Shown here: positions 4,989 through 34,696 of the stretch, one piece after another
How the letters are laid out: each line of letters begins with the position of its first letter
Numbering within the stretch: the first letter of the stretch is position 1
DNA from: Erythrobacter sp. 3-20A1M
GTDB taxonomy: Bacteria; Pseudomonadota; Alphaproteobacteria; Sphingomonadales; Sphingomonadaceae
Assembly (NCBI RefSeq): GCF_018636735.1
Contig: NZ_CP045200.1
Location: forward strand, 930,001 to 994,000
Length of the DNA stretch: 64,000 nt
Direction: 5' to 3'
Made by a program: the position numbers and the translations under genes
The notes under the pieces: generated by a model
What the model saw: only the letters and a program-made list of their open reading frames with translations
Database searches by the model: none
What the model was told of the DNA's origin: nothing

Positions 4989-5058
4989 CCGCTTCCCTTA
5001 GCGGCTTGCGACCAAGGCGACATCCGTTTTCATTCGCCACCCGATTAAAGGACCGACC

Positions 5059-6162
5059 ATGCACGACGCGCTATTCCAGCCCATCTCGATCGGGGCGATC
5101 GACTGCCCCAACCGCATCTTCATGGCCCCGCTGACGCGCGGCCGGGCGCATGTTCCCGGCTTCGTGCCGACCGAGATGATGCAGACCTATTACCGCCAGC
5201 GCGCCGGTGCCGGGCTGATCATTTCCGAAGCGACCGGCATCAGCGTGGAGGGGCTCGGCTGGCCCAGCGCGCCGGGCATCTGGAGCGCCGAGCAGGTCGA
5301 GGGATGGAAGCCGGTGACCGACGCCGTGCACCAGGCCGACGGGCGCATCGTGATGCAGTTGTGGCACATGGGCCGGATCGTCCATCCCGATTTCCTCGGC
5401 GGCGAGGCCCCGGTCTCGGCCAGCGCGACCACCGCACCGGGCCACGCTCACACGCCCACGGGGCGCAAGGATTACGAGCCCGCCCGCGCGCTGTCGGTGG
5501 AGGAGATCGCGCGCGTGGTCGAGGATTACCGCAAGGCCGCGGCGAATGCGAAGGAAGCGGGCTTCGACGGCGTGCAGCTGCACGGCGCGAATGGCTACCT
5601 CGTCGACCAGTTCCTGCGCCGGTCGACCAATTTGAGGGAGGACGAGTACGGCGGCAGCGCGCAAAACCGCGCCCGCTTCCTGGACGAGGTGCTGGGCGCG
5701 CTGGTCGATGTCTGGGGCGCCGACCGCGTGGGCGTGCGGCTGTCTCCCAACGGTGAAACGCAAGGGTGCGACGATCCCGATCCGGTCGAAACCTTCGGGG
5801 CCGCGGCGCGCGTGGTGGAGAAGCACAAGCTCGCCTTCCTCGAACTGCGCCAGCCGGGGCCGGAGGGGACGTTCGGCAATACCGGTGTGCCGCAGCAGGA
5901 TGCACATATCCGCCAGCTCTATTCGGGTCCGCTGGTGCTCAACAGCGATTACGGCGCGGCGGATGGGGCGCAGGACGTGGCGAGCGGTCGCTGCGACGCG
6001 GTCAGCTTCGGCCGGCCCTTCATCTCCAACCCCGACCTGCCCGATCGCATCCGGCAGGACGCGGAATTCGCGCCGAACGTGAACGTGCCGCAAAGCTGGT
6101 ACCTGCCCGGCGCGGCGGGCTATATCGACTACCCGACGCTGGCCGAACAGCGCGCGGGCTGA
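5059..6162 (+). CDS. Old-yellow-enzyme family alkene reductase (FMN-dependent)
   Basis: 367 residues, a full-length single-domain (beta/alpha)8 flavoprotein. MAPLTRGRA near the N-terminus, LIISEATGIS, QLWHMGRIVHPDF, VQLHGANGYLVDQFLRRSTN and the C-terminal phosphate-binding CDAVSFGRPFISNPDLP are all diagnostic of the NemA/OYE class. The family reduces activated C=C bonds, nitrate esters or N-ethylmaleimide with NAD(P)H and is often induced by electrophiles. No neighbouring regulator of the NemR kind is seen. The physiological substrate cannot be stated. Confidence 0.93.
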   Translation: MHDALFQPISIGAIDCPNRIFMAPLTRGRAHVPGFVPTEMMQTYYRQRAGAGLIISEATGISVEGLGWPSAPGIWSAEQVEGWKPVTDAVHQADGRIVMQLWHMGRIVHPDFLGGEAPVSASATTAPGHAHTPTGRKDYEPARALSVEEIARVVEDYRKAAANAKEAGFDGVQLHGANGYLVDQFLRRSTNLREDEYGGSAQNRARFLDEVLGALVDVWGADRVGVRLSPNGETQGCDDPDPVETFGAAARVVEKHKLAFLELRQPGPEGTFGNTGVPQQDAHIRQLYSGPLVLNSDYGAADGAQDVASGRCDAVSFGRPFISNPDLPDRIRQDAEFAPNVNVPQSWYLPGAAGYIDYPTLAEQRAG

Positions 6163-6165
6163 GCG

Positions 6166-6483
6166 TCAGCCCTCGTCCGGCGCCGTGACGGCCGAGGGCT
6201 CGGCGGCTTCGGAAGTCTCGCCGGCCTGCGGCTCGGACGGCTCAGCGGTCGCGTCACCCGGCGCGGAGGTCGCTTCGCCGCTGGCCGCGCCCTCGCCGGG
6301 CTGCGCGGTCAGCGCCGGGGAGGTCGAGCGCACCGTGTCGAGCGGGAGCATGTCGTCGTTGATCGTGCCGCCCAGCACCTCGCCCCTGGCGGACCCGCCT
6401 TCGCTCTTCTCCGCCTTGTCGCCGCAGGCCGCCAGCGCGAGGGCCAGTCCGGCGCAGGCGAGGAAACGGGAATGGCGGATCAT
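6166..6483 (-). CDS. Small predicted lipoprotein of unknown function
   Basis: 105 residues. It begins with a signal peptide ending in a lipobox ([11 protein letters not shown], cysteine near residue 21), so it should be lipid-anchored in the envelope. The rest is disordered in appearance, rich in Glu, Ala, Pro, Ser and Thr, with no recognised domain. Its ATG overlaps the stop of lipB (ATGA), and it was found inside a longer open frame whose upstream part is only the antisense shadow of lipB. It is therefore probably co-transcribed with lipB, with no obvious functional link. Confidence 0.7.
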
Positions 6484-7139
6484 GCGGTTTCTCCTTCCAG
6501 CGCGGCGAGGAAGCGCGGCGCGGACTGGCGCAATGCCGCATCCCACTCCTCCGGCGCAAGCGCGATCCCCAGCCGGGCGAGGCTGGTGACGCCGAATTCG
6601 TCGATCCCGCACGGCACGATGCCAGTGAAATGGGACAGGTCGGGATCGAGATTGACGGAAAAGCCGTGCATCGTCACCCAGCGCCGCACGCGCACGCCGA
6701 TCGCGCCGATCTTCGCCTCCCCCCCGTCCACGTCGCGCGTCCAGATGCCCACGCGCCCATCGACCGCCCAGCTTTCGACCCCGAACCCGGCGAGCGTGTC
6801 GATCACCCAGCCTTCGACCGCGTGGACGAAGCGGCGCACATCCTTGCCCCGCCGGTTGAGGTCGAGCACGAGATAGCCGACCCGCTGCCCCGGCCCGTGA
6901 TAGGTGTAGCGCCCGCCCCGGCCCGCCTCGACCACCTCGAACCGCGGGTCGAGCAGCTCGTCCGGATCCGCGCTGGTCCCGGCGGTATAGACGGGCGGAT
7001 GTTCCAGCAGCCAGACGAGTTCGCGCGCCTCGCCCGCCGCCACCGCCGCATTGCGCGCCTGCATTTCGGCCAGCGCCTCGCGATAGGGTACGGGCGCTTC
7101 CGCACCGCGCCATTCGATATTTTCGGGGGCCGAAACCAT
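6480..7139 (-). CDS. lipB: Lipoyl(octanoyl) transferase
   Basis: 219 residues from the ATG at 7139; the frame is open to 7190, but the extra 17 residues match nothing. LipB moves octanoyl groups from acyl carrier protein to lipoyl domains of dehydrogenase complexes such as pyruvate dehydrogenase. [18 protein letters not shown] is the family signature, [18 protein letters not shown] supplies the catalytic lysine, and FTGIVPCGI holds the catalytic cysteine. It diverges from a membrane-protein gene at 7209 and is followed by an overlapping small lipoprotein gene. Confidence 0.95.
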
Positions 7140-7208
7140 GAGCGGGGATTGCCTGCCCCAGCCCCGACCGCTTATCAAGCGGGAAGGCAACAGGAAGCGG
7201 AACCCGCA

Positions 7209-8069
7209 ATGAAATTCGATCTCAATCGCGCGTGGACCGATGCGCTCGGCCTTGTATCGGCCAACAGCAGCGTCGTCGCCATCGTGGCCGGGGTATTCTT
7301 CTTCCTCCCCTATCTCGCCCTGATGCTGTTCGCGCCGCAGATGTTCGCCGGGATCGAGGCGCAGGCGCAGACCCAGGACCCGCAGGCCATGATGGACGCG
7401 ATGATGGGCGTTTACGCGCAGTACTGGTGGGTGTTCGTCCTAATGCTGCTGATCCAGACAATCGGGATGATCGCACTGATCGCCCTGTTGGGGGATCGCG
7501 CGCGGCCGACCGTCGGCGACGCCATCGTCAGCGCGATCAAGCTGCTGCCGAGCTATATCGGCGCGTCCCTGCTGACGGCGCTGGCGTTCATGGTGGTGGT
7601 CGCGGTGGTGACGGCGATCGGCGCGGCGACCGGGTCCCATGTCATCCTGACCCTGCTGGGCGTCGCGGCCTTCATCCTGCTGATCTATGCCTATGTGAAG
7701 GTAATGCTGTTCATCCCGGTGCTGGCGCTGGAGCACACTTACAATCCGGTCACGGCGCTGGTCCGCAGCTGGCGGTTAACGCGGGGCAACGCGTTCCGCC
7801 TGTTCCTGTTCTACTTCCTGCTGTTAATCGCCTTCGTCATAGTCTCGGCCATCATCGGCATGGTTTTCGGCCTGGCCTTCGGATTGATGGGCAGCGAAGT
7901 CGCGATCGTGGGCAATGCGCTGGTGGGTGCGGCGGTGAATTCGGTATTCGTGGTTCTTTTCCTGGCGGTGCTGGCCGCGACCTATCGCCAGCTGGCGGCG
8001 GAGCGGGTCAGCGTGCCCGCCACCGCCCACGACATGGATACGCCGGACGACGGCGACCGGCGGCTCTAG
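7209..8069 (+). CDS. Multi-pass membrane protein of unknown function
   Basis: 286 residues from the ATG at 7209; the open frame extends upstream only as the antisense of lipB. About six hydrophobic segments are seen, starting after residue 15, with long Ile/Val/Leu/Ala runs. The segment [18 protein letters not shown] resembles the joint found in membrane proteins related to the glycerophosphodiester phosphodiesterase membrane domain, but I do not assign the family firmly. No catalytic motif is visible. The stop overlaps that of the convergent methyltransferase gene by two bases. Confidence 0.8.
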
Positions 8070-8761
8070 CCTTCCGCCCCGTCCTTCCAGCCCCAGAAGA
8101 GCTTGCACGGCAGGACGTTCCAGAACTCGTAATCGCTTTCGATGTCGTCGAATTCTCGCGCCATGAGGTCGCGCACCGCGGCAGTGAACTGATACGCCAT
8201 GAACGCGCCGCCGGGGCGCAGGATGCGATGCGTTGCGGCCATGATGGCGGGGCCGACGCCCTCGGGCAGGGTGGAAAACGGCAGACCCGAGACGATGTAG
8301 TCCGCCCGCTCGTGCCCGTGATCGCGCACGATCCGTTCGACGTGCTCGGCAGAGCCCAGCACCGCGGTGAAGCGCGGGTCGTGGATGTGCTGGTTGAGGA
8401 AATCGACATAGAGCGGATTGGTGTCGATCGCGATCATAGCGCCGTCGGCGGGCAGGCGATCGAGCACCGGCAGGCAGAAGGTGCCGACGCCGGGGCCGTA
8501 TTCCACGAACAGCTGGCAATTGGGCCAGTCGACCGGCGCCAGCATCTTGTCGATCGTGAAGCGCGAGGATGGGATGATCGAGCCGACCATCTTGGGATGC
8601 TCGATGAAACCGCGCAGGAACACGCCCCATTGGCCGAACAGCCGGGCCGTGCGGCGCTGCAGGCTGTCGCGGCTGGGGGCGGCTGCAATCGAGTTACTGT
8701 TGTTCAAGGAAAATCCGTTCGTCCGCTGCGGTCGAAAATGGTTGCGGCGCGGTGCCAGCAA
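8066..8761 (-). CDS. SAM-dependent methyltransferase, phospholipid N-methyltransferase-like
   Basis: 231 residues. The SAM-binding motif I is FVEYGPGVGTFCLP at about residue 87, with an acidic end of strand two in MIAIDTNPLYVDFL and a motif IV region YIVSGLPFSTLPEG. FLRGFIEHPKMVGSIIPSS before the Rossmann core is typical of the short rhizobial-type PmtA proteins, which methylate phosphatidylethanolamine toward phosphatidylcholine. The related KsgA-like fold has the same motif I, so the substrate is an inference. The start may be later, since the first 25 residues look unconserved. Confidence 0.75.
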   Translation of the reverse strand: MLAPRRNHFRPQRTNGFSLNNSNSIAAAPSRDSLQRRTARLFGQWGVFLRGFIEHPKMVGSIIPSSRFTIDKMLAPVDWPNCQLFVEYGPGVGTFCLPVLDRLPADGAMIAIDTNPLYVDFLNQHIHDPRFTAVLGSAEHVERIVRDHGHERADYIVSGLPFSTLPEGVGPAIMAATHRILRPGGAFMAYQFTAAVRDLMAREFDDIESDYEFWNVLPCKLFWGWKDGAEG

Positions 8762-8826
8762 GGGCGCGACATTGCAAGCGGCGGCATTGCCAGTCGCAAT
8801 AGCTGGGCCTAGCTGATCAACCGATC

Positions 8827-10218
8827 ATGGCCGAAACCGATCCCGCCCCAATCGAGCCCGCGCCCAGCGCGCCCGCCGCCCGAACCGCAGCACCGCTGGC
8901 GGAGACCGGGATCCCGCGCGGGCGGCTGGCGCTGCTGTTCACGGTGATGCTGGTGACGGCGGCGGGCAACACCGCGATGCAGTCGGTCATGCCCTCCATC
9001 GGCACCTCGCTAGGCGTCGCCGACGTGTGGATCAGCCTCGCCTATAGCTGGTCGGCGCTGCTGTGGGTGCTGTGCGCGCCGTTCTGGGCCCGGCGATCGG
9101 ACCGGCGCGGGCGCAAGAAGATGATGGCGCTGGGCCTCGCGGGCTTTTCCGCCTCCATGGTGCTTTGCGGGGCGACGCTGTGGTTCGGGCTGACCGGCGC
9201 GCTGGCGGCGGGCGCGACGCTGATCGTGTTCGCCCTGTGCCGCTCGCTCTACGGCCTGTTCGGCTCGGCCGCTCCGCCCGCGGTACAGGCCTATGTCGCG
9301 AGCCGCACCGAACCGGCGCAGCGCACGCAGGCGCTCTCGCTCATTTCCTCCAGCTTCGGCCTCGGCACCGTGCTCGGTCCGGCGCTTGCCCCCCTGCTGA
9401 TCTTCCCGGTCGTGGGCCTGACCGGTCCGTTCCTTGCCTTCGCCGCGATCGGCCTCGTCACCATGATCGCGTTGCGGCTGCGCCTGCCGAACGACGAGCC
9501 GCGCTTTCCCGGCCATGGCTTCGCCTTCGATGCGCCTTACGGCAACAGCGGCGGGGCACAGTCCAACCGCACGGTGCAGCATGGCGAGGAAGAGATGCTG
9601 GCGCATCACGAGGAAGGCACCGCGCCCCCGTTGCGCTGGACCGATCCGCGCAGTTCGCCGTGGCTGCTGACCGGCCTGCTGGGCGGGCATGCGCAGGCGA
9701 TGGTGCTGGGCATCGGCGGCTTCCTGGTGCTCGACCGCCTGAGCCTGCGCGACGATCCGCTGGCCGGCGCCGGTCCGGTGGGCATCGTGCTGATGACCGG
9801 CGCGGTCGCGACCCTGCTGGCGCAATGGGGGCTGATCCCGACGCTGAAGCTGGGGCCGCGGGCCGCCGCGCTGTGGGGCATGGCGCTGGCGATCGGCGGG
9901 GTAGCGCTGCTGGCCGTCGCGCGGGACCTGCACGCGATCGCCCTGGGCTTCGCGATCGCCTCGCTCGGTTTCGGCCTGTTCCGCCCCGGCTTCACCGCGG
10001 GCGCATCGCTCGCCGTGTCGCGAGCCGAACAGGGGCAGGTCTCTGGTCAGGTCGCCTCCGTCAACGGGGCGAGCTATGTCTATGCACCGGCGCTGGGTGT
10101 GTGGCTCTATGGGCATTCGGACTGGCTCGGCTTCGCCACCATCATCGCCTTCTGCCTCGCCGTGTTCGCGATCGGTTCGCGGCGGCTGCAGCGCGATGCG
10201 GAGCTGACGGGGGAGTAG
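8827..10218 (+). CDS. Major facilitator superfamily transporter
   Basis: 463 residues with about twelve hydrophobic segments. The loop between helices 2 and 3 has ARRSDRRGRKKMM, the MFS motif A, which places it among drug/metabolite H+ antiporters (TetA/multidrug-like). A long hydrophilic central loop around residues 225-265 separates the two six-helix halves. The N-terminus is rich in Pro and Ala and may be cytoplasmic. Nothing nearby identifies the substrate. Confidence 0.85.
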   Translation: MAETDPAPIEPAPSAPAARTAAPLAETGIPRGRLALLFTVMLVTAAGNTAMQSVMPSIGTSLGVADVWISLAYSWSALLWVLCAPFWARRSDRRGRKKMMALGLAGFSASMVLCGATLWFGLTGALAAGATLIVFALCRSLYGLFGSAAPPAVQAYVASRTEPAQRTQALSLISSSFGLGTVLGPALAPLLIFPVVGLTGPFLAFAAIGLVTMIALRLRLPNDEPRFPGHGFAFDAPYGNSGGAQSNRTVQHGEEEMLAHHEEGTAPPLRWTDPRSSPWLLTGLLGGHAQAMVLGIGGFLVLDRLSLRDDPLAGAGPVGIVLMTGAVATLLAQWGLIPTLKLGPRAAALWGMALAIGGVALLAVARDLHAIALGFAIASLGFGLFRPGFTAGASLAVSRAEQGQVSGQVASVNGASYVYAPALGVWLYGHSDWLGFATIIAFCLAVFAIGSRRLQRDAELTGE

Positions 10219-20958: not shown

Positions 20959-22983
20959 ATGTGCGGCATTCAGAACGTCACCCGCAAGCACGGCACGTAT
21001 TACTACCGCAAACTCATACGTTTAGGCGCTGATAAGCCTTTTCGGATACGCTTCTCGCTCAAGACCACCAGCCGCAGGCGCGCAGGTCTGCTCGCGCCGG
21101 CCCTGACTTTGATTTGCGAAAGGGTCGCGATGAACATGATGAGCAAGATGGCGCGCGACGGACTGGACAGTGCCCAACGCGCCGAAATTTTCCGGCGCCA
21201 GATCCTGGTGGAGCGCGACCGGCTCGAAGCCTTGCATGCGAGCCTTCACGTCTTCCCGCCCGAAGACCACGATGACATCGGCAAGGCGCTGACGCTGCGG
21301 CTGGGCGCGAGCGAGATGGCGGCCCAGGACGGCGCGATGCAGGGCAAGATCGACGATTTCCTAGTCGCCCGCGTCGATCCCGACAATGACAACGAGGACA
21401 TCGTGGTCCTAGCGTGGTCAGATCTTGCTGCGTCGATCGAGCACGAGGGAGCCGAACAGGCTGCAATCGCCCGGTTGGCCGAGCTAGGTGGGGAGCAGTC
21501 GGCGTTGCGGGAGGCGATGGCCCGCAAGGTCGTCAATGAAGCGCGCATCGTAGCGATCCGCGAGTTCCGGGAGGTGCTGGCCAATCCCGGGGCCGCTTAC
21601 GCGCCGGTCCCGCGAACCGAACACGAGCCGGTTTCGCAAGATGTCGTCCCTGCGCCGATTCCCTCTGCGCCTTCCCCCGCCCAGCCCGCGGTGACAGGTC
21701 CTTATGCGACCATGACCGCGAAAGAAGCCCTGGAAAAATTCTTCGAACACAACCCCCGGACCGGTGGGAAGGACGGGGAATCCAGACGGAAGAACGGGCA
21801 GGCTTGGACCGCGAAGACGCGCAAGCAGGCGAGGGTCGCCGCACGTTTTCTCGATGAAGTCATGCAAGGCCGGCCGCTAGCCCAGATCACGCACGATGAT
21901 CTAGTGAAGCTCAACTATTGCTTCGAGCGGGTGCACGGTGCGACACTCCTGCGGTCGCCCAAGCAGCAGGATATGACCATCCTCGAAATCGTCGATGAAT
22001 ACGCGGCTCTAATCGCTGAGGACGAAAAGCTTGCCGCGAAGCAGCGACAGAAGCGCGGGTCCGAGAATTGTGCGGCCGACGCACCGGCTCAGTTGACCCG
22101 AAGGGACCTTGGCCTTTCCTTGGTGACGACCAATCGTCATTTCGGCTTTCTCCGCCAGCTGACAGACTGGTTCGCGCGTCACCATCCGATCGCTGTGCTC
22201 GATTACAGCGCCTTCATCATGAAGAAGCAGGGCAATGCGCGGGAGGATCGGCAGCGTTACACGGAAGAGCAGGGGCGGATGATTTTCAGCCTTCCGCCGT
22301 GGACTGGTACCTCATCGCCCAAGCGCCGGATGCAGCCCGGAACCTGCATCTACCACGATTCTTGGTATTGGGTGCCGATGATCGCCTGGTATACGGGCAT
22401 GCGTCTTGACGAAATCAGCAGCCTGGAGCTCGACGAAATCAAGTTCGAATGCGGGCATTGGCAGATCCAGGTGAAGCCGAACTCCCTTCGCGCCCTGAAG
22501 ACTGATAGTTCCAAACGAGTGTTGCCGGTCGCGAGCCAGTTGCTGAAGCTGGGGTTTGACAAATACGTGGAGGCCCTTCGATCTGAGGGCGAATGGCTTC
22601 TCTTCCCCGAACTGCTGCCGGAAAGCGGCATAGGGACCTTGGGACGCGCTTTCTACAAGACGCGATGGACTCACCTCGCCAAGCAGCTGCCGTTTCTTGT
22701 AGAGGGACAGGCCAATCACTCGTTTCGCCACACTGCCATCGACTCGATGAAAGCCGCAGGCATCCCGAGTGAGATTCGCGCCGACTTTGCCGGCCACAAG
22801 CTCACCTCCGAGACCGAAGGCCGCTACTCTGACGCGCACACGAAATTGCTGCGCGAGGCGGCGGAAACCATTCCAAAGGTCACCGACCACCTCGTCCCCA
22901 ACCCTATCAACCTACTGCCGAAGCGACTTCGCCAGCCACGAAAAGCGCGGCCGAAGCGTTTGGAACCACGAGAGGTGGAGTAG
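20959..22983 (+). CDS. Tyrosine recombinase (site-specific integrase) at the left end of the island
   Basis: 674 residues, larger than typical phage integrases. The N-terminus (TRKHGTYYYRKLIRLGADKP) is the short beta-rich domain found before many integrases of this kind, followed by a long helical region and linker, a core-binding domain (~residues 255-350) and the catalytic domain. The catalytic set appears complete: Arg482 in WYTGMRLDEIS, His587 and Arg590 in HSFRHTA, His613 in FAGHK and nucleophile Tyr623 in GRYSD. It should catalyse integration and excision of the 23-kb element. Downstream genes are of foreign character. Confidence 0.93.
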   Translation: MCGIQNVTRKHGTYYYRKLIRLGADKPFRIRFSLKTTSRRRAGLLAPALTLICERVAMNMMSKMARDGLDSAQRAEIFRRQILVERDRLEALHASLHVFPPEDHDDIGKALTLRLGASEMAAQDGAMQGKIDDFLVARVDPDNDNEDIVVLAWSDLAASIEHEGAEQAAIARLAELGGEQSALREAMARKVVNEARIVAIREFREVLANPGAAYAPVPRTEHEPVSQDVVPAPIPSAPSPAQPAVTGPYATMTAKEALEKFFEHNPRTGGKDGESRRKNGQAWTAKTRKQARVAARFLDEVMQGRPLAQITHDDLVKLNYCFERVHGATLLRSPKQQDMTILEIVDEYAALIAEDEKLAAKQRQKRGSENCAADAPAQLTRRDLGLSLVTTNRHFGFLRQLTDWFARHHPIAVLDYSAFIMKKQGNAREDRQRYTEEQGRMIFSLPPWTGTSSPKRRMQPGTCIYHDSWYWVPMIAWYTGMRLDEISSLELDEIKFECGHWQIQVKPNSLRALKTDSSKRVLPVASQLLKLGFDKYVEALRSEGEWLLFPELLPESGIGTLGRAFYKTRWTHLAKQLPFLVEGQANHSFRHTAIDSMKAAGIPSEIRADFAGHKLTSETEGRYSDAHTKLLREAAETIPKVTDHLVPNPINLLPKRLRQPRKARPKRLEPREVE

Positions 22984-23219: not shown

Positions 23220-25541
23220 CTATCTTCGATCGACATCGTCGAAGATTGATCTCATCGTTCCAGAGGATGGAACGGGCGGCGGAGCCGATTTTTGCGTGAC
23301 GATATGAGTCCAGTCCGCTGAATCATCTTCCTCGTCACGCTCTCGCTTTCGTTCTTCCAGACTTTCGATAGAGCTGTCGATCTGGCTTCTAGCTTCGTCG
23401 ATGAGATCGATACCGCCATCATCCAGACCGATATTCTCGATCAGTTTCAAGGCAGCTGAGATCTTCTGAAAGTGATCAGCTGGATCCTCATCCAGATCCG
23501 CATCGCTCGTGACAGCCTCAATGCGCTCTTCAAGCTTCGGCAGCGTCTCGCTCCTCAGGGCAAGGCCCAGCTCCACCAAGCGCATCGGCGGGATGAGATG
23601 CAGCATGTCCTCATCATCGAAGAAAGAAAGATCCATCTCACGAAGAGCAGAATCCTCCAAGCGTAGCGCGGCTGTTTCGCGAAGCTGATTGGAAAGAAGC
23701 CCGAGTCTGAGCGCACGCGCATGAACATTCAACTTGGGATCGTTTCCAATGGTGGAACTCACCCAACTTTGCCGTTCGAGTAACTCCGGCTGTTGGCGCA
23801 CCAAGCGTCCAAAGACATTATCATTGGCTCGAAATGCAAGGAAATGAAACAACTGCCAATTGCGGGCAAGTTCGTCCGGTGTGCGGTCAAGACGCTGAAC
23901 CAACGCTTCGTCCAGAGATTCTGGAACTACGAGCGCATCCCTGATGCCGGTCGCGCCTTCACAAATGAACCCGGTCAGGATCGTTTCAATTGTTGCGCCC
24001 CTTAACAGCGCCGCCATCATATGCGGCTTCTGACGCAGGATTTCGGTCAAAGCATCTGCAATCGTTGGGTGTGAGAAGGTCCACCCATTGCCCGATCGTT
24101 TGATGAAGGAACCCTCGAGATCAGCAAACCCATCCTGCAGTCGCGCCAGACTAATAGAGGTAAGATCAACGACCGCCTGGGCTGCGTCGGAATTCTGGGC
24201 TCCCGGATCAAATCGACCTTCATGGACGTAGATCAGTATCAATGCGGCCAGGAGCTCTTCATCTAGGGCATTGAGTGTGTCGATCAGGTGCTCGTAGGGT
24301 TCTTCCATGAACTGGACCAGAGAAGTTTCGCGCGGTGCCAGGCCCTTGGTGAAATTGGGATCACCCAAGCGCTCGGCTATGCCCGGCAGAAATGTCGGCA
24401 CCGCTGCGACTGAGGGCAGATGCGGTTTCACGCTGGTCTTCCAGCTTTGGCTCTGATTGCCGAAATTTATATGATTATAGAGGATCTGCGAGCGCTCTTC
24501 CAACGTCAATTCACCGACGTCGACCACGGCAGCTTCGCTGCCGAACTGCGCCAGATTGCGCGGCCCCAGCCTTCGTTTGGCGGCCTCGTAAATATGTTTG
24601 CGGGAGGTCAACAGGAAACGATTACCGTGCGCGATCGCTGCCTTGACCTTAGTGAAAGTCGAAGCCCAGTCCTGGACATAGTCCTCTCGTACAACATTCG
24701 AGCCAAACGCATCGTCGATCCAGAAGAAGCGACCGGGATCATTCGGATTCCAGCCAGACTCAAAATCACGCGGACTGGTCAATGCAAGAACGGTGCTGTC
24801 AGGGTTCTCCGACGCCATCGTGGAGATGATCGCGCCAATGGCGGACTTTCCGCTTGCAGGATTGCCTAGCAGCAGCACGATGCCATGTTCGTTGATTATA
24901 TGGACGGCCTGACGGTGCGCTTTTGTCGGCACATATGTGCGCAGCTTCGGAATCCAGCTGTCGAGCAGAGCACGGCTCTGCTGGCCCATCCTCTCGTCGA
25001 TGATCGCAGTCAGGTCTCCGAGACCATATACCTGCGGAACGAGCGCGCGCAGGCGCGCGCTGCTGCGGATTGTACGCACAATGAATTGGCGTCCCAGCAC
25101 GTGAGCCTTGCGAACACCGAGTTGGTTGAGCGTCTTTCGCAATTCCTTCGCGACCGGCGCGTCCACGCTCATGCTGGTGAGGAAGACATAGGTGTCCGCT
25201 TGCCCTCCCGCCACGAGTTGCCGAACATGTTCGAGTTCGGGGGTAAGGTCGCCAAGCTTGAGGGATTTTCCAGCGTCAGAGCTATGCTTGCACTGCACTG
25301 TGCCGATCGGGGCGGATCGTCGTTTGTTCCCGGGAATGAGGAAAACGGCATCCTGACCGCCATCCTGCGCTTCCCTGAATATCTCAACCGGGCGCTGAAG
25401 GACAACCTCGCACACCTGTGAACACAGATCCTGAAAAGCACGCCAACCAATCGTGTGCAACGCAAGGTCAGTCCATGGCCCTACCGCGGTCCGCTGGCGC
25501 GGCGGTGCCAGAACAGACGAGCGGGTATCGCGCCGACTCAT
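23220..25541 (-). CDS. PD-(D/E)xK (Mrr-like) nuclease fused to an nSTAND3-type NTPase, putative defence effector
   Basis: 773 residues. Residues ~25-125 form a restriction-endonuclease-like domain: GWRAFQDLC, then REAQDGGQDAVF with Asp64, then GTVQCKHSS with Gln83 and Lys85 (D...QxK), the Mrr pattern. Residues ~205-400 form a STAND P-loop NTPase: LLLGNPASGKSA (Walker A, Lys232), RFFWIDDAFG (Walker B, Asp276-Asp277) and LLTSR (sensor). The C-terminal ~350 residues are helical repeats, likely the sensor. STAND proteins oligomerise after binding a trigger, and the nuclease would then cut DNA. Its ATG overlaps the upstream stop (ATGA), making it the last gene of a three-gene operon. The family name is my inference. 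Confidence 0.8.
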   Translation of the reverse strand: MSRRDTRSSVLAPPRQRTAVGPWTDLALHTIGWRAFQDLCSQVCEVVLQRPVEIFREAQDGGQDAVFLIPGNKRRSAPIGTVQCKHSSDAGKSLKLGDLTPELEHVRQLVAGGQADTYVFLTSMSVDAPVAKELRKTLNQLGVRKAHVLGRQFIVRTIRSSARLRALVPQVYGLGDLTAIIDERMGQQSRALLDSWIPKLRTYVPTKAHRQAVHIINEHGIVLLLGNPASGKSAIGAIISTMASENPDSTVLALTSPRDFESGWNPNDPGRFFWIDDAFGSNVVREDYVQDWASTFTKVKAAIAHGNRFLLTSRKHIYEAAKRRLGPRNLAQFGSEAAVVDVGELTLEERSQILYNHINFGNQSQSWKTSVKPHLPSVAAVPTFLPGIAERLGDPNFTKGLAPRETSLVQFMEEPYEHLIDTLNALDEELLAALILIYVHEGRFDPGAQNSDAAQAVVDLTSISLARLQDGFADLEGSFIKRSGNGWTFSHPTIADALTEILRQKPHMMAALLRGATIETILTGFICEGATGIRDALVVPESLDEALVQRLDRTPDELARNWQLFHFLAFRANDNVFGRLVRQQPELLERQSWVSSTIGNDPKLNVHARALRLGLLSNQLRETAALRLEDSALREMDLSFFDDEDMLHLIPPMRLVELGLALRSETLPKLEERIEAVTSDADLDEDPADHFQKISAALKLIENIGLDDGGIDLIDEARSQIDSSIESLEERKRERDEEDDSADWTHIVTQKSAPPPVPSSGTMRSIFDDVDRR

Positions 25542-26299
25542 TCTGCCCCGAGTGAATAGATGGTTCGAAGCCGTGTCGTTTGCTCTTTGACATCACTCTT
25601 GATGCCAATGTCGGAAGGCTTGAAGTCCCCATCTTTGTCGACCTTCTCGGCGAAGGTGGCAAGGTCGGCAAGGATTGGCCCGGCTATGACAATGCGCTCG
25701 CTATCAGCAAGCAATTGGAGCAAGCGAAAGACATCGGCACGGTGCTTGCGTACCGACTTCTGGTCGACCGCCTCGCCGCGCTCGCGGCGAGCCGCAAGAT
25801 CAAGATGAGCTTTTGCTTTGAAAGGTATCAGCAGACGCTCGTCGAGTACGGGAACACCGTCGATGATGCGCCTGTGCTCGGTTAATGCCTGATAATAGTC
25901 TTCGTCGAGCAGAATGGCTGAGAGACTTGTTATGTCTTCATCGACAGGCAAAGGCGTAAATGCACTACCATCGGCCGGTGTGATCACGTCTGGAGCACGC
26001 GAGAACAGTTCCAGCATTGACGGGAACTCCGCGTTCTCGGGCTTCTGGAAACGGTAGAACTCCTTGTCGCCTGTGCTGCGTTCGCGCTGCTGGTAACCGC
26101 CATCTTCAACAAAGGTCCAAAACCTTTCACCGAATGCGGCATCAAGCGCTTCGACAAGGATCACAATGTCGAGGTCTTTCGTTGCGCGGAAATCAAGTCC
26201 CACTTCCTCCATCACGATTTCGCACGCGCCGCCACCGATCAACACGTAGTTGGGGGCAAAACCTGCAAAATGTTCGCGAAAGAGATCGAGTCCCCTCAC
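25538..26299 (-). CDS. Nucleotidyltransferase, AbiEii-like (putative toxin)
   Basis: 253 residues. VLIGGGACEIVMEE (residues 19-32) followed by RATKDLDIVI (Thr40, Asp42, Asp44) is the GG...T.D.D signature of polymerase-beta-type nucleotidyltransferases. Size and fold order suit the AbiEii/type IV toxin group, which transfer nucleotides onto tRNA acceptor stems or other targets. It is flanked by four-base ATGA overlaps on both sides, after a wHTH gene and before the nuclease-NTPase gene. The wHTH/nucleotidyltransferase order matches AbiE antitoxin/toxin pairs. Confidence 0.78.
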   Translation of the reverse strand: MRGLDLFREHFAGFAPNYVLIGGGACEIVMEEVGLDFRATKDLDIVILVEALDAAFGERFWTFVEDGGYQQRERSTGDKEFYRFQKPENAEFPSMLELFSRAPDVITPADGSAFTPLPVDEDITSLSAILLDEDYYQALTEHRRIIDGVPVLDERLLIPFKAKAHLDLAARRERGEAVDQKSVRKHRADVFRLLQLLADSERIVIAGPILADLATFAEKVDKDGDFKPSDIGIKSDVKEQTTRLRTIYSLGAE

Positions 26300-27306
26300 A
26301 GGCCGGCCTCCTTCAGAAGCATGTTTTTGGCAAAAGCGACGCGATCATCGACCGTTTCGGGAAGGCTCAGCCAGAGTGAGATCGGATCGACGCACCGATC
26401 ATTGCCTAAAAGGCGAGGATCATAGCTCCAGGTCTCGATCTCGATTTCGCCTCCACCGCAGCGATGCTCTGTTTCGAGATCGTGAGCTTGTGCAAAGCCC
26501 TTCCACCGGCTCGCCGCAATGGCGCGGGTTTCGATGCGAGGTTCTGAAAGATCAGTCCAGACCGATAGTGCCGAGCCGCCCGCAAGCGGCAGTTCTGCAA
26601 TGGCGTTGCCCCAATTTACGTGTCGCCGCTTCCGGACGGGAGAGCGTAGCTGAGTCCGGGCGCGTTTCCACAGATCGCGTGGGGAGTAAGAGAATTGGAG
26701 CAACCGTGAGCGGCCAGCCTGTTCAACCCGAATTAGCTCAACCGCCTCGAGTTCTGCGATCGCCCTGCCCATGCTCATGACGCTGTAGCGAAAGCGCGTG
26801 GCGAGTTCGGTTGGGGTCGCCTGTTCGAGCTGTCCAAGAACCGCCGCTATTACGAGCAATTGGCTTGCCGGGCTCAGGCTCTCACCTGGGCTTTCGCGCA
26901 TACCACGAAAGTGCTCGCGCAGATCGATCGCGAGCTCGGGAAGGAACAGCTGATTGCCCGGGACGATAAATGCGACATGATGGCTGATGAGCCGATGGCG
27001 GTTATGTGTTGGCAGACGATCCGTGACGAAGACAATCATGCTGTCGGGAAAATGACGTTGGAGGGCATCTTGATGTTTGGAGATTGTCGAGGGCGTATCG
27101 CTTTCGAGGGAATCGCTAAGCATGAAGACGCACTGCCTTCCGAGGATCTTGCCCGCAGCCAGATCATATCGGTGCGTTAGGAAAGCAGGCACATGCTTTC
27201 CTTCGATGTCTTCCAGGAACTCCAGCGGTGTTTGGAGCACCTGCTCGACATAGTCACGAAGTGTACGCATCAGGGCGTCTCGGACAGTGGTGTGATTGTC
27301 TAACAT
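26296..27306 (-). CDS. Winged-helix protein, putative AbiEi-like antitoxin and autorepressor
   Basis: 336 residues from ATG 27306; the frame also has a TTG at 27318, which I reject because it lies inside a putative operator. An N-terminal ~140 residues of mixed alpha/beta character (RHFPDSMIVFVTDRLPTHNR) precede a winged helix at about residues 145-205 (ATPTELATRFRYSVMSMGRA, then ELIRVEQAGRSRLLQF). The C-terminal third has no recognised motif. Type IV antitoxins of the AbiEi class have a wHTH and a second domain and repress their own promoter, which suits the inverted repeat at 27307-27348. It is the first gene of the operon. Confidence 0.68.
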   Translation of the reverse strand: MLDNHTTVRDALMRTLRDYVEQVLQTPLEFLEDIEGKHVPAFLTHRYDLAAGKILGRQCVFMLSDSLESDTPSTISKHQDALQRHFPDSMIVFVTDRLPTHNRHRLISHHVAFIVPGNQLFLPELAIDLREHFRGMRESPGESLSPASQLLVIAAVLGQLEQATPTELATRFRYSVMSMGRAIAELEAVELIRVEQAGRSRLLQFSYSPRDLWKRARTQLRSPVRKRRHVNWGNAIAELPLAGGSALSVWTDLSEPRIETRAIAASRWKGFAQAHDLETEHRCGGGEIEIETWSYDPRLLGNDRCVDPISLWLSLPETVDDRVAFAKNMLLKEAGL

Positions 27307-27348
27307 TGATATGCACAATAACGGCAGTAGTGTTAATGTGCAATATCA
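27307..27348. promoter_or_regulatory. Near-perfect inverted repeat in the divergent promoter region, putative operator
   Basis: TGATATGCACAATAA (27307-27321) and TTAATGTGCAATATCA (27333-27348) are inverted copies differing by one inserted base and one substitution, with an 11-base spacer. The left arm touches the wHTH start codon. The region is AT-rich against its surroundings and separates the minus-strand wHTH operon from the plus-strand ATPase operon, so one factor could control both. Confidence 0.7.
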
Positions 27349-27439
27349 TGTTATAGGCGGCAGCAGAATCGTGGCAGCCGGATTCGAAACTCGTCTTCGC
27401 AATCCAGCACAGACAGCCATGTCAAATAGGGGAACCTGA

Positions 27440-27682
27440 GTGATGCCGCAGCAGACCATCGAGTTCGAAATTGAGGACAACCTAACGGTTGATCAGAACG
27501 TAGCGACATTCGTGAACAAGCTGAAGGACCTCAACCCTGGACTTGCGCAGATACTTTCAACAGCATTGCCCGATCTCAGCAACGACGCCGCGATCGACCA
27601 AGGCCAACTTCTCGATCAATTACTGGCAGCCATATCGGCCCCGCTCGATCCAGCAGAGCAGAACGGTGGCAGCGCATCATGA
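27440..27682 (+). CDS. Small acidic protein paired with an SMC-like ATPase (possible middle component)
   Basis: 80 residues (or 79 from the second Met). It is acidic and helical (IEDNLTVDQNVATFVNKLKD, then AAIDQGQLLDQLLAAISAPL) with no cysteine, signal or membrane segment. Its stop overlaps the ATG of the large ATPase gene (ATGA), so the two are translationally coupled. Small partner proteins encoded directly before an ABC ATPase are a feature of the described ABC three-component (ABC-3C) conflict systems; I cannot match this one to a named middle-component family. ORF length and overlap are the main support. Confidence 0.7.
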   Translation: MMPQQTIEFEIEDNLTVDQNVATFVNKLKDLNPGLAQILSTALPDLSNDAAIDQGQLLDQLLAAISAPLDPAEQNGGSAS

Positions 27683-30150
27683 GTGGCTGGTATCTCCAGC
27701 AAATCTCAATTGAGGGTTTCCGAGGGATCAACAACGAGGGCGCTCCCCTTGTGCTGAAATTCAAGCCCGAAAAGGTCAATTCGGTATCGGCCCCGAACGG
27801 TGTCGGAAAAACCTCGATCTTTGATGCCATGATCTACGCAATCACTGGTCGCATCGCCAAGCTGGATGATCTTCCAGCCGCCGAACAGGGCTCAACATAC
27901 TACCTCAATCGTTTCCACTCCGGCGGGGTCGGGACAATCATGTTGACCTTGTCACCATCTGGCGGCGGCAATCCGGTTATGGTCACCATTCAGCGCGACG
28001 CAGCTGGACAGAGGACCGTTTCCGCATCAAACGGAGCCGACGCCAACGCTATCCTGGCTGATCTGAATCGTGAGTTCGTCCTCCTTGATGGAAAGACTTT
28101 CCAGGATTTCATCGACCTCACGCCGCAAAAGCGCGGGCGATCATTCGCAGGCCTCCTTGGACTCAAACGCTACTCGGCTTTGCGCCAGGGATTGGCGAGC
28201 CTTGCTCATACCCGCTCGTTCAACAACCATTTCGGCGTTGCCGCGAAGCACGCCGAGCAAAAGGCGGCTGCCGTCTCCGCACAACGCGCCAGTGCCAACA
28301 TCAAGGAGGCCTATAAAGCGCTTGTCGGGGATGACTATGATCCGGCCCAATCGGAAGCAGACATGTTGGCGCGAGCGCACTCTGCTCTCAGCAGCATTCC
28401 ACTACTGAAGCCGCTTTGCGATGGGCGGACATTCGAGGAGATCGATCCGGGCTCATGCGTTGACGCAGCAAAGGCAGCTGAAGGCGGAGAAGCGCGCAAC
28501 AAGCTGGCAGCGATTATCAGGGACCATTCCCGCTGGACAGAAGCTCTCGCAACCGCGCCGTCGGCGGAAGACGCCGCCGAACTCAATGCTCTCAGTAAGG
28601 CCCGCGATGATGCACTTGAACTCACTCAGGGGGACGTTTTTCGCCAACTCTTTTCCGTCAGCGAGGCCATTCTAGCAGATGCTGCATGGCAGGATCCCAC
28701 CACTTGTCCGACATGTGACAGGTCCGGCCCGGACTGCGTGCTCGATCATGTCCGCGACAAGCTCGCCGCTTTCGACGCGGTGGAAGCCGCCTCGAAGAAC
28801 CTGGCAGCAAGCTGGATCTCAAAGGGCTGGAATCAATTGGACGATTTGGAAAAGCTGGGTGTGCAGCCGGAAGAATCCAGTCTGCTTGCCGACGCCAAGA
28901 CCAATGGAGCGAAAGGTTCTCTCAGCAGAGAACAAACGCGCACGCTCGTTGAATGGGTGAAGACGCTAGCCGATCGGGCAACGGCCAAGATTTCCGAACT
29001 CCTTCAGGCCAAAGTCGAACTGGAAACCGGTCTGCCGGAGAAGCTGACAGCAGTTGTCGAGAAAGCGGAGGCCGCCCGGCGGCTTCAGGCCAATCTGTCA
29101 GATCTGCGCTCTGCGAATGCAAAGCACGAAGAGGTAACCAACGAACTGAATCATATCCGCCAGGTCAAGGAGTTCCTCGATCAGGCCAGCGGCGCATTTG
29201 CAACGGCAGAATCCAATGCCAGCGCCCGGCGCCTCGCAGCGATCGAGCCGAGGACCAAGGATATCTTCGCTGCCATCATGTTCAGCGATGTTGTGCCAGC
29301 ACTCAAGAAAAGAGCTGGCAGCGAAGAACTTGCCATCTCACTGGCGGAATTCTGGACGCTGCCTGACATTTCCGCCCAAGCGGTGTTATCTGAAAGCTAT
29401 CGCAACGCCTTTGCAATCAGCGTCTACCTGGCCGCAGCAGCGCTGTACGGTGGCGGTGCCAAATTCCTGATCCTCGACGACGTTACCTCCAGTTTTGATT
29501 CAGGGCACCAATTCCATCTCATGAATGTCATCAAGACCCAATTTGCCCGGCCTGGCGTCCCGGACGGCCCACAAGTCATCTTGCTTAGCCATGACACCGC
29601 CTTGGAAAAGCTTTTCAACACGAACTCGAACGAAGGAGGCTGGTGGCACCAATGTATTCAGGGAACAGCGCGAACATCGGTTCTGCCCCAGTCTGGCGCT
29701 GTCCACAAAATACGAGATGCAACCCACAACTTCCTCGATACCGGTAACATCACCGATGCGGCACCGCGCATTCGGCAATATCTCGAATTCAAACTGGAGG
29801 AAGTCATCCAAAAAGTGGCGATTCCAGTTCCCATCGGTGTTGCCTTCAACGACGACAAGCACATGGCGAAGACATTGATCGATGCGATCAAGGATGCCGT
29901 CAATCTCCATCAGGCGGCGGGAAGCTTAGTGCTCGAGCCTGTACAAGTGACAGGACTTCAAACCTCCGTTGCGACGATTGTCACCAACTACCTTTCACAT
30001 TGGGCGACCGGACAGACCCAGGCATTCAGCGCGCCGTCGCTCAAGGGCGTGATGCAGGCGATCGATGATTTCGCCCGTTGCTTTCAGTTTGAAGACCCGC
30101 CGGGTTCCGGTCAGTTTCGTTACTATCGTTCACTCAGTCAGAAGGTCTGA
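27679..30150 (+). CDS. SMC/RecF-like ABC ATPase with CxxC hook, putative defence protein
   Basis: 823 residues. Walker A is APNGVGKTSIFDAM (residues 38-51). A coiled-coil-rich middle contains CPTCDRSGPDC (Cys343, 346, 353), which resembles a zinc hook. LSESYRNAFAISVYLAAA (~569) is the ABC signature, FLILDDVTSSFD (Asp600-Asp601) is Walker B and LLSHD (His638) is the H-loop, so both ATPase halves are complete. A further ~180 residues after the H-loop form an extra C-terminal domain without recognised motif, which may be the effector or docking part. Similar architecture occurs in RloC, ABC-3C and other phage-defence ATPases. Coupled to the 80-residue gene upstream. Confidence 0.85.
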   Translation: MSGWYLQQISIEGFRGINNEGAPLVLKFKPEKVNSVSAPNGVGKTSIFDAMIYAITGRIAKLDDLPAAEQGSTYYLNRFHSGGVGTIMLTLSPSGGGNPVMVTIQRDAAGQRTVSASNGADANAILADLNREFVLLDGKTFQDFIDLTPQKRGRSFAGLLGLKRYSALRQGLASLAHTRSFNNHFGVAAKHAEQKAAAVSAQRASANIKEAYKALVGDDYDPAQSEADMLARAHSALSSIPLLKPLCDGRTFEEIDPGSCVDAAKAAEGGEARNKLAAIIRDHSRWTEALATAPSAEDAAELNALSKARDDALELTQGDVFRQLFSVSEAILADAAWQDPTTCPTCDRSGPDCVLDHVRDKLAAFDAVEAASKNLAASWISKGWNQLDDLEKLGVQPEESSLLADAKTNGAKGSLSREQTRTLVEWVKTLADRATAKISELLQAKVELETGLPEKLTAVVEKAEAARRLQANLSDLRSANAKHEEVTNELNHIRQVKEFLDQASGAFATAESNASARRLAAIEPRTKDIFAAIMFSDVVPALKKRAGSEELAISLAEFWTLPDISAQAVLSESYRNAFAISVYLAAAALYGGGAKFLILDDVTSSFDSGHQFHLMNVIKTQFARPGVPDGPQVILLSHDTALEKLFNTNSNEGGWWHQCIQGTARTSVLPQSGAVHKIRDATHNFLDTGNITDAAPRIRQYLEFKLEEVIQKVAIPVPIGVAFNDDKHMAKTLIDAIKDAVNLHQAAGSLVLEPVQVTGLQTSVATIVTNYLSHWATGQTQAFSAPSLKGVMQAIDDFARCFQFEDPPGSGQFRYYRSLSQKV

Positions 30151-32269: not shown

Positions 32270-34696
32270 TCCTCAAGATTTGGCGATACAAGGTTCGGCA
32301 GCAGAATGGGACTCGTCCCCGAACGGCACAGAAGAACGCGTTCGACATCGCTTTCGGATGCGCAAGTTACATTGCCGGATTGAAGATCGAACCTGAGTGC
32401 TTGGAAGCGTTCGAGAATGCCCTGATTGTTTCGGATGGTTCGTCGGACGCCCGGCGGGCGGGTGATTACATTGTGCGCCAGGACGATCACGATGTCGCCG
32501 GAACGATGGGGCACGGACTGGGCGATGGAGACATCGTCGAACAGATCCAGATGATGGCCGTTGCCGCCGCATCGGCGGGTCTGGAGTATTTCTACCATTA
32601 CACGTGGTCACACCCCGATGGTGAGATGTTCCCGCCGTACCAGATGGCCCGGCAGAACAGCACCATCCGCCATGTGCTTGAAGCATCCGGCTGCCCTTCC
32701 CTGGAAGCGTATCATCGCGGGAGCCGTCGAGGAAAACCTCGGATCCACGGTCATGGCAATCTGCTCTCGATCGATCGAAGCGGCGAAGGCAAGCCGCTGG
32801 CGCATTCCTGGTACATTGAAGCATCGCATCTGGCTATCGCGGTGGTGGATCAAAGCCGCCCGCAATTGGCAGGAGGTGCATCGCAATCTCGCGCCGCTCG
32901 GAATACGATACGTCATGGTCGGGAATACAGGCCGCCTCGTAGCCATCGGCGAGAATGGAGAACCAAGCGGGGAATGGGTCGGAGCGGGCGTCGCTTACCC
33001 CAACGCTTCCCCGACTAGGCTGAGCAAGCGGTTCAAGTCCGAAAAGTTCGAGCCCCCGCCAGGCGAGCTCGATCTGCGTCCGCTGACCATGCCGGTGTTT
33101 AACAGGCCGGACGATACGCCGGATAAGCGAGTCGAGAAGAAAGAACTGGCCAAGCAAGAGGCTGCCGAACTCAAGCCGGAGATTGAAGCTATCGAGCGGC
33201 ATCTTGCCGACGAAGCGAGACGCCGGCGCAAGGAGATACAGGAAGCCAAGCTGGGGAAAGACCATAACCGGTCTGTCGCCGAGGAGGCTGCCCGCCGACG
33301 CCAGGAGGAGGAAACCGTGCGCGAGTTCGCGATCGCGAAGGGCACGCGGCGATCGCGTAGGACCGAAGCAACCAAGCCGAAGGCGACAGAGCGCGCGAGC
33401 GGTTGGCGACCGATCTGCCTGATGATCTGGGGCGCGCTCCGGAAGCGCAGGAAAAAGGCCTCGGCCAAGCGGCGTTCCAATCTCGATCAGCGCTACGATA
33501 TCAGATCCGTGGAAGGCCGTGTCGAATACTGGCTGCGCGGTTCCGACGGCGAGGCAACGCTCGCCTTCGTCGAATACGGCAACCTCATAACGGTCAGGCA
33601 TACTGCGCGGCGCGTCACTATCGACGCGCTCGAAATTGCCGGCGAGAAGTATGAACGCATCCGGATCGCCGGAACGCAGCGTGCGATCGCGGACAGCGTC
33701 AATATCGCCGCAGAGCTCGACCTGATCCTAGAAGACGACCAAGCCAAAGCCGGGCAGGAGCATCGAAGAGCCGTTGCAGCGCGTAGGACCGGCAGCATTC
33801 TCGAAGCATCCCTTCGGTTCCACAATACAACCGATGATCGTGCTCGCACACGGCAGGCGGCCAGACGGGATCGGAAAGAACGCGAGATTTTCAGAGACGC
33901 CGCCGCATGCGGTGAAGACAACGGTTCTCTGAAGGCGATGGTCGCCGCGTATCTGGACAACAATCAGCGTACGCTAGCTCATGCCGATGATGCCGCGGTC
34001 ATCGAAGCGCGGCGACGCTTGGATCAGGACATCGATCACGACCGTCTGTTCCTCGCGTCCTCGCGCTATCACCTCCGTTACGCAGGGCACCAATTCCGTT
34101 TCCTGGACGATAAAGCATTGACGAAAGCGCTTTGCCATGCGCCGGAGCTTCTCGTCGACCGCGAACTGCAGGAGAGGTTGCGCGCCATCGAAGCCATCCA
34201 GCTCGATAGGCGACGTATCATCGCTGCTGCGATCGTCGCCGGTGCCGCCTCGATCAGCGACGGCGAACTGCGCATGGACGGTCCGCAGGCTGCCTGGGCG
34301 CGAGGTTTCTGGAAAGCGCAGCGGGCCGATCCGACATTCCAGCGCCTGATCGCTGTCGCATGGGCAAGGCCGGACAGGTTTTCGTATAACCAGAACGCGC
34401 GGCCTGGAGAGCTGAGCCGAATGCAGGCGTTGCAGAACAACGACCCGGCGCTTGCCAAGGCCATCGCGCGGCAGATGCACGCCTACGAGCGGACCAATAC
34501 CGCCATGTTCGAAGACAATCGAACGCCCCATAAATCCGCAGCAGTACAGTCGAGCAACGCTGGTTCCGAACTGGCGTCGGACATGCCTTCCCGTCCGGCG
34601 ACATCGGCCCCCCGCCCTGCTGTCGTCAAGGACCGGGATCGCCCTGGAAGGCCGCGACATCCTAGCGCTCCCAATCCTGACGGTTTCGAACGATGA
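32266..34696 (+). pseudogene. MobA/VirD2-type relaxase with long C-terminal extension, frameshifted
   Basis: Reading begins MILKIWRYKVRQQNG at 32266 (ATGA overlap with the MobC-like gene). EYFYHYTWSHPDGEMFPPYQ and HGHGNLLSIDRSGEGKPLAH are relaxase motifs (the second with the metal-binding HxH). After AIAVVD the sense moves to the +1 frame: KAARNWQEVHRNLAPLGIRY continues to a stop at 34696. One extra C at about 32851 explains this. A second, compensating pair at about 32702-32748 is possible (IIAGAVEENLGST reads in the other frame). The C-terminal ~500 residues are charged and helical, with RYDIRSVEGRVEYWLRGSDG resembling large polyvalent-protein-associated domains. Confidence 0.7.

Follow-up and report, generated by a model that had tools for sequence, protein, structure and literature searches.

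Does a five-gene locus whose two divergent arms face each other across one inverted repeat encode a single coordinated defence system, or two systems packed head to head? The question is raised by a locus of Erythrobacter sp. 3-20A1M in a 64,000-nucleotide (nt) stretch of DNA (the window), which corresponds to positions 930001-994000 of a single 3.12-Mb contig. The minus arm encodes a winged helix-turn-helix (wHTH) protein, an AbiE-like nucleotidyltransferase (NTase) and a nuclease-STAND protein. The plus arm encodes an 80-residue protein and a Rad50/SMC-like ATPase. Both alternatives had been put forward in an initial annotation of this DNA, together with a co-occurrence search to separate them, and both proved right in part: the arms usually occur apart, and all five genes recur in Sphingomonas sp. 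PP-CE-1G-424. The locus is made up of three portable modules, namely the wHTH protein with the NTase, the nuclease-STAND protein, and the 80-residue protein with the ATPase. The explanation favoured here, at slightly better than even, is a composite, modular anti-phage cassette in which an AbiE-like toxin-antitoxin pair stands at the head and the repressor of that pair provides the coupling.

All five open reading frames (ORFs) were found at the positions given in the initial annotation. On the minus strand the wHTH gene (26296-27306; 336 residues) is followed by the NTase gene (25538-26299; 253 residues), which overlaps both of its neighbours by 4 nt, and by the nuclease-STAND gene (23220-25541; 773 residues, comprising an Mrr-like nuclease and an nSTAND3 NTPase at residues 203-360). 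The wHTH start was set at ATG 27306, following close relatives; the mechanical ORF opens at TTG 27318. On the plus strand the small gene (27440-27682, starting at GTG 27440 or ATG 27443) runs into the ATPase gene (27679-30150; 823 residues). The overlaps had been described as ATGA, which holds at 25538-25541 (minus) and 27679-27682 (plus); that at 26296-26299 reads GTGA because the NTase gene has a GTG start. The inverted repeat claimed between the arms was present at 27301-27322 and 27332-27353 and spans the wHTH start codon, in a gap between the arms of 133-136 bp.

The locus of Sphingomonas sp. PP-CE-1G-424 (L028) carries all five genes in the same divergent layout, with the operator between the arms in a gap of 97 bp. 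Its ATPase gene lies at 3125-5596 (-), the small gene at about 5593-5835 (-), the wHTH gene at 5933-6946 (+), the NTase gene at 6943-7704 (+) and the nuclease-STAND gene at 7701-10016 (+). Identities to the window by tblastn were 73, 55, 53, 75 and 69%, respectively. DNA similarity to the window (3183-5596, 6229-9411 and 9609-9754 of L028) is confined to the five genes. No tblastn match to the window was obtained at 1e-5 with flank ORFs of at least 120 codons or with the remainder of the contig (L127), and L127 gave no blastn match to the window; the five-gene unit thus stands in two unrelated contexts. An accident unique to the window genome was rejected, since L028 repeats the full set. With the window left out because it was chosen for having both arms, the ATPase adjoins in one of four close relatives (L011/L027, L028, L029 and L030); its background frequency is about 1% of sampled genomes.

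The arms of the inverted repeat are complementary at 16 of 22 positions (73%) across a 9-nt gap, and the core of the operator reads TTGCACnnTAAC-n9-GTTAnTGTGC on the minus strand. When the intergenic stretch was shuffled 300 times with dinucleotides preserved, 16 paired positions were never reached (best 15). The same palindrome score was 14 in L028 and 15 in L030. The best palindrome of L011 and of L029 (13) is at a different place, so palindrome strength by itself is not decisive, and sequence conservation of the operator was taken as decisive instead. The five close loci (window, L028, L011, L029 and L030) have the same site at the wHTH start. So little DNA separates operator and start codon that the wHTH message may well be leaderless.

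Wider counts were made over 85 of 87 wHTH loci examined, each with at least 100 nt upstream (L039 and L073 were too short there). Six duplicates were omitted (L001, L021, L027, L110, L139 and L140) and some near-identical loci were retained; the 85 share kinship and hence are not independent draws. TTGCACnnTAACn9GTTAnTGTGC with up to 3 mismatches was found in 45/85 loci against 0/17,000 mononucleotide shuffles, and the inner TAACn9GTTA in 76/85 loci against 65/17,000. Chlamydiae, Planctomycetota and Gammaproteobacteria are represented among the 45 carrying loci, and in 36 of these the operator starts 30-42 nt before the projected wHTH start. The exact pattern occurs once in the 3.1-Mb host genome, apart from its own opposite-strand reading (one mismatch). 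Across wHTH loci of Sphingomonadaceae and Caulobacteraceae (e.g. L033-L036 and L042) the outer operator arms vary and the inner TAAC-n9-GTTA is kept; the varying arms look as though repressor and operator had changed together.

One operator region shared by the two arms had initially been proposed. Its position between the arms was as described, but judged by conservation the inverted repeat is an operator that belongs to the wHTH module: close relatives that lack the ATPase keep it, and it was not found upstream of the ATPase in other places, 17/17 ATPase loci without a wHTH gene being negative (8-9 mismatches at best in the stretch searched). The idea of an operator specific to the head-to-head arrangement was rejected, since the site is conserved without the second arm. 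In Streptococcus agalactiae the AbiE antitoxin is reported to bind inverted repeats of its own promoter (PMC3985639), and by this precedent the operator is likely bound by the wHTH protein in its own promoter. The promoter of the plus arm is expected in the same gap.

Outside the window and L028 the arms were mostly separate, and a fixed five-gene system was rejected on that ground. In Bradyrhizobium sp. 4 the small protein and ATPase pair occurs at 74% identity without the wHTH gene, and in Methylocella the minus-arm trio occurs without the ATPase. That each arm is found alone supports the alternative of two independent systems brought head to head by defence-island clustering, in which the operator would serve its own operon only and the 80-residue/ATPase pair would have its own promoter and work alone. 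The genes that neighbour the ATPase, which differ widely from locus to locus, and the wHTH-NTase relatives that sit among other defence genes point in the same direction. It is opposed by L028, in which the head-to-head layout recurs between unrelated flanks and again has the operator in the gap, and we consider this alternative doubtful, although it is the most serious of those weighed here.

The pair that heads the minus arm was followed by a genome scan with the NTase, which returned 485 relatives; the best 80 of these were kept as loci. A wHTH homologue adjoins the NTase in 80/80, some of them cut by contig ends. The wHTH protein, proposed as antitoxin and repressor, was modelled with AlphaFold2 at a mean predicted local distance difference test (pLDDT) score of 87.9. 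It has an alpha/beta N-terminal domain, a MarR-type wHTH domain at about residues 146-205 and a C-terminal domain at about residues 224-336. MarR_2 was matched by 18/25 aligned rows at E up to 1. Among the best 50 of 1532 Foldseek matches MarR/ArsR regulators predominated; some chains from phosphatases and ribosomes also occurred, and AbiEi did not. Residues 1-131 form an alpha/beta fold, which may be covered by the Foldseek match 2okf (fdxN element excision factor, rank 11).

In the NTase, G22, G23, D42-x-D44, E97 and K161 are invariant in 32 aligned rows. Pfam AbiEii (PF08843) was matched at E up to 1 by 20/32 of these rows, with a best E of 7.2e-8; the window NTase itself matched no Pfam family, and its comparison with one canonical AbiEii by hhalign gave a probability of 0.2. 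By these matches the NTase would belong with AbiEii at the family level only, and it is taken as the putative toxin of the pair. Scans of viral contigs with a single NTase or ATPase sequence returned no confirmed relative. In Shinella (L013, 7826-10154) the NTase is followed immediately by an IS21 element, and in Mesorhizobium amorphae (L023, 5992-6739) the NTase is split into two ORFs.

The family assignments made initially were borne out in outline. The nuclease-STAND protein matched Pfam nSTAND3 (E 3.9e-36) and the PADLOC family PDC-S73 (E 6.4e-26), with Mrr_cat just below cut-off (E 6e-4). The Mrr-like motif D60/G62/D64 ... Q83-x-K85 is kept in 10/10 aligned rows, window included, and no Pfam match was found beyond residue 360. 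Among the NTase loci (80 from genomes plus those from plasmids, by tblastn) the gene was found only in the closest group, L011/L027, L028 and L029. L011 and L027 are Methylocella from two assemblies and both carry it; in Thiocystis (L029) the contig ends inside it. Blastomonas (L030; 72% NTase identity) has no nuclease-STAND gene by tblastn.

The modules are freely exchanged. Homologues of the nuclease-STAND protein at 67-68% identity follow OLD-type ATPases that carry a TOPRIM domain (L015, L136 and L137). One at 32% lies behind a canonical AbiEi/AbiEii pair in Bradyrhizobium quebecense, and in Rhizobium rhizogenes a homologue stands beside a CoiA-type nuclease gene and, oriented convergently, the plus-arm ATPase. 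No evident partner was seen in L016 (66%) and L020 (30%). In L018 the match starts at residue 175, past the nuclease, and the phage collection gave only a weak partial match. In Bradyrhizobium barranii (L128, 7001-10666) a plus-arm ATPase is followed by an ATPase-part protein with a C-terminal Mrr_cat, in which the domain order is reversed relative to the nuclease-STAND protein of the window.

Besides the PDC-S73 gene, which recurs 3' of the wHTH-NTase pair, several other defence genes occupy that position. In L066 and L075 the pair is followed by a 374-residue gene (no Pfam match in L075) and an AAA_13 ATPase (Pfam AAA_13 in both; PDC-S06 in L075, the one tested for it). A CoiA-type nuclease gene follows in L053, and HamA, HamB, GajA and GajB (Hachiman and Gabija) follow on the same strand in L064 (9009-18865). 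In L061 (202-15149) the pair lies inside a BREX locus, between BrxC, PglX and an HEC-06/Orf5-like gene and PglZ-BrxL. The operator precedes the wHTH gene with 1 or 2 mismatches in L053, L061, L064, L066 and L075 (L061: 1). A widespread AbiE-like module with one conserved operator could tentatively be seen as a control head that plugs into unrelated defence operons, an idea that we hold to be possible, though not yet probable. If it is true, antitoxin loss in infection would arm the whole defence set together.

The loci with identified defence genes (L011, L028, L053, L061, L064, L066 and L075, by family search or tblastn) give a lower bound, and were drawn from the 80 loci, all of which continue for over 600 bp downstream. 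Neither the window nor L029, where the nuclease-STAND gene runs off the contig, belongs to the 80. A script for third genes found an ORF of at least 150 residues close behind the NTase in 20/80 loci. L014, L034, L039, L047, L049, L050, L051 and L072 were dropped as unconvincing or unidentified, a family scan of the L039 third gene being without match. L052, L067 and L083 were similar by eye only and L068 and L076 apparently damaged, and all five were kept outside the count. A mechanical count of divergent ORFs (16/77) was not used; the 150-residue cut also misses the 80-residue gene of L028. Downstream of the NTase, L067, L068 and L076 group with the 374-residue-gene loci L066 and L075, and L076 and L068 look deleted or damaged.

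In the plus arm, the ATPase has a Walker A motif (N40-G41-x-G43-K44), a hook (C343-P-x-C346), LSES (570-573), LDD (599-601) and SHD (637-639), and towards its C terminus R699-x3-E703 ... (S773)H774. The Walker A residues, CPxC, LSES, LDD, SHD, R699, E703, N770 and H774 are invariant in 19 aligned sequences; S773 is not. Pfam AAA_13 was matched by 15/15 rows at E up to 0.1. The model, of moderate quality (mean pLDDT 74.5), has long helices around the hook, with pLDDT below 50 at the hook itself, and an all-helical C-terminal domain. In 12/19 loci, the window among them, the ATPase follows a small ORF whose pattern is similar, with a 4-nt overlap in 10/12. In the other 7/19 the ATPase has an in-frame N-terminal extension in its place, which in L120-L123 shows the small-protein pattern; from this natural fusion it is argued that the small protein and the ATPase act together.

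The ATPase is scarce. Full-length matches were found in 2/148 genomes of relatives (with 3 partial), 1/385 of the class (the window itself), 2/249 of the Sphingomonas family and 7/397 of the Methylocella order, the four samples overlapping one another. In plasmids it was found in 19/72,556 records, 18 of them at 80% coverage or more.

The best PADLOC defence match of the ATPase was LmuB (E 1.3e-18, over 3-593 of 611). Its Foldseek matches in the PDB were SMC heads, Lamassu LmuB (E 8.5e-10, among the best of them) and Rad50, with low TM-scores of about 0.2-0.5; LmuB folds were matched at E about 1e-9 with TM-scores of 0.24-0.37. These matches would fit a reduced Lamassu (ABC-3C), for which the nuclease-STAND protein would supply LmuA in trans. 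The small upstream gene recalls the middle component LmuC, the R. rhizogenes ATPase (L008) lies near an nSTAND3 homologue, although in a different layout, and the Mrr-domain ATPase of L128 adjoins a plus-arm ATPase. Against this, an nSTAND homologue is missing from the fetched flanks of 16/19 ATPase loci, the ATPase has its own conserved C-terminal domain, and its Walker B motif is LDD and not the Glu-to-Gln form described for LmuB (PMC10586767). A reduced Lamassu is therefore regarded as improbable. Plain Lamassu was rejected, as no LmuA effector gene lies beside the pair in the window; the flanks inspected held no constant effector gene. The label 'ABC-3C-type' given in the initial annotation is accordingly not supported in full, as the window has no LmuA-type effector and the C terminus of the ATPase recalls RloC.

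On one flank of the five-gene locus a tyrosine integrase was found at 20959-22983, and on the other a weak relaxase-like match at 32561-34696. Because of these two flanking features the locus probably sits on a mobile element. They also suit a further alternative, in which the trio serves chiefly to stabilise the element by addiction and the ATPase pair is unrelated cargo, as does the frequency of NTase relatives on plasmids typed as conjugative (32/51 records). Addiction would require the pair alone, yet defence effectors have been added to it in several ways, and we think this alternative very unlikely.

A number of results weigh against the composite cassette. The wHTH/NTase pair was found in only 2/19 ATPase loci (fetched flanks of varying length). 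None of the 19 ATPase plasmid records is among the 34 wHTH records (all listed), and none is among the 40 listed of 51 NTase plasmid records. Of the four relatives closest in the minus arm, three, Methylocella (L027), Thiocystis (L029) and Blastomonas (L030), gave no ATPase match at E 0.001 anywhere in their genomes. No sigma-70 site was found in the gap of the window or of L028 by a promoter scan at threshold, and promoter and terminator scans of both intergenic regions returned nothing. AbiEi was absent from the 7 Pfam families of the window wHTH protein and from the 25 of 40 families listed for its aligned rows. Only 7/80 loci had an identified defence gene 3' of the pair, a count that has no counterpart for other regulators and so does not demonstrate enrichment. 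As for the ATPase, the spacing between Glu and His in its C-terminal motif is 70, as against 36-52 in RloC, and its C-terminal domain, compared alone with seven AAA_13 proteins of related genomes, gave an hhalign probability of only 0.2. The full-length ATPase matched the profiles of these seven proteins, one of them shortened by ORF picking, over the hook-to-ATPase part (probability 98.0, E 1.6e-13).

The relationships of L028 count on the same side. Its NTase is 88% identical to that of L011 and 82% to that of L029, as against 74% to that of the window. Its wHTH protein is 77% and 74% identical to those of loci without the ATPase, as against 53%. Its nuclease-STAND protein is 88% identical to that of L011 and 80-81% to those of the OLD-partnered L015 and L137 (75% to L136), above the 69% to the window. 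Since the minus arm of L028 is closer to loci without the ATPase, the five-gene form requires one loss or else two gains. About equal distances (73-74% identity) separate the ATPases of the window, L028 and Bradyrhizobium L006. An old five-gene form with losses and two gains at the same place both fit these comparisons, and the NTase, wHTH and nSTAND trees are too small to order the closest loci. A search for remnants of the ATPase arm in L011, L027, L029 and L030 returned only weak, scattered matches (best E 0.005).

Under the composite cassette, the wHTH protein would bind the inverted repeat at 27301-27353, repressing its own promoter, and would restrain the NTase toxin. The nuclease-STAND protein, as third gene, would be an added effector under the promoter of the wHTH operon. 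The divergent 80-residue protein and Rad50/RloC-like ATPase would form a second add-on with its promoter in the same gap, and because the gap is shared the wHTH repressor probably holds down the plus arm too. Infection would deplete or displace the wHTH protein, upon which both arms would rise. The NTase would then block translation, the nuclease-STAND protein would cut DNA once a phage product had been sensed, and the Rad50-like protein would both sense DNA ends and, through its C-terminal domain, attack RNA, plausibly transfer RNA. Repression of both arms by one regulator, and protection against phage by the set, are predicted on this basis.

How bacteria silence several costly defence systems and then release them jointly is an open question, and one known answer lies in the WYL regulators reported next to defence systems (PMC9122601). 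Should the same hold for a toxin-antitoxin repressor with a readable operator, co-regulated defence sets could be found by operator scan. A candidate ribonuclease also emerges from the locus, namely the Rad50-like ATPase family that has a small partner and conserves an RloC-like motif.

Among known systems, AbiE, a type IV toxin-antitoxin system, is the closest to the head of the locus. Both have a wHTH gene that overlaps the NTase gene by 4 nt and a promoter-proximal inverted repeat (PMC3985639), and the NTase family is related to AbiEii through the rows noted above. The wHTH domain of the locus protein lies mid-protein in the model and not at the N terminus, and extra effector genes adjoin the same operator. 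Canonical AbiE was rejected, since the families listed as matching the wHTH protein do not include AbiEi.

The nuclease-STAND protein resembles PDC-S73 and the Avs-type STAND proteins in joining an N-terminal effector to nSTAND3. In Avs5 the effector domain is reported to be Sir2-like (PMC12931631), in place of which the locus protein has an Mrr-like nuclease; unlike the Avs type, it is the third gene of a toxin-antitoxin-like operon.

The plus-arm ATPase shares with the anticodon nuclease RloC a Rad50-like architecture with a CxxC hook (invariant in 19/19), matches to AAA_13, and a C-terminal Arg-x3-Glu ... His, usually Ser-His. The motif is given for RloC as Arg-X3-Glu-X36-52-His, with Ser often preceding His (PMC2610378); RloC and PrrC have been assigned to HEPN (PMC3710099), and RloC is described as activated by DNA breaks (PMC3874168). 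The ATPase may work like RloC. It is not filed as RloC because of the wider spacing, the variable S773 and the negative C-terminal profile comparison, and it differs further in having an 80-residue partner gene. With Lamassu (ABC-3C) it shares an SMC-like ATPase with a CPxC hook, a small gene just upstream and the LmuB matches; it is set apart from LmuB by its Walker B motif and by its greater length, which includes the C-terminal domain.

The PDC-S06 loci L066 and L075 have an AbiE-like pair of the same family followed by a Rad50-like ATPase. Their genes are co-directional, unlike those of the window, the partner has 374 residues, and the ATPase is only distantly related to that of the plus arm (best BLASTP stretch 22% over 207 columns). 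The initial annotation had known of no described system with the full set of five genes, and literature searches likewise returned none. The components are related to known kinds; what is new is their combination, coupled by a family-wide operator.

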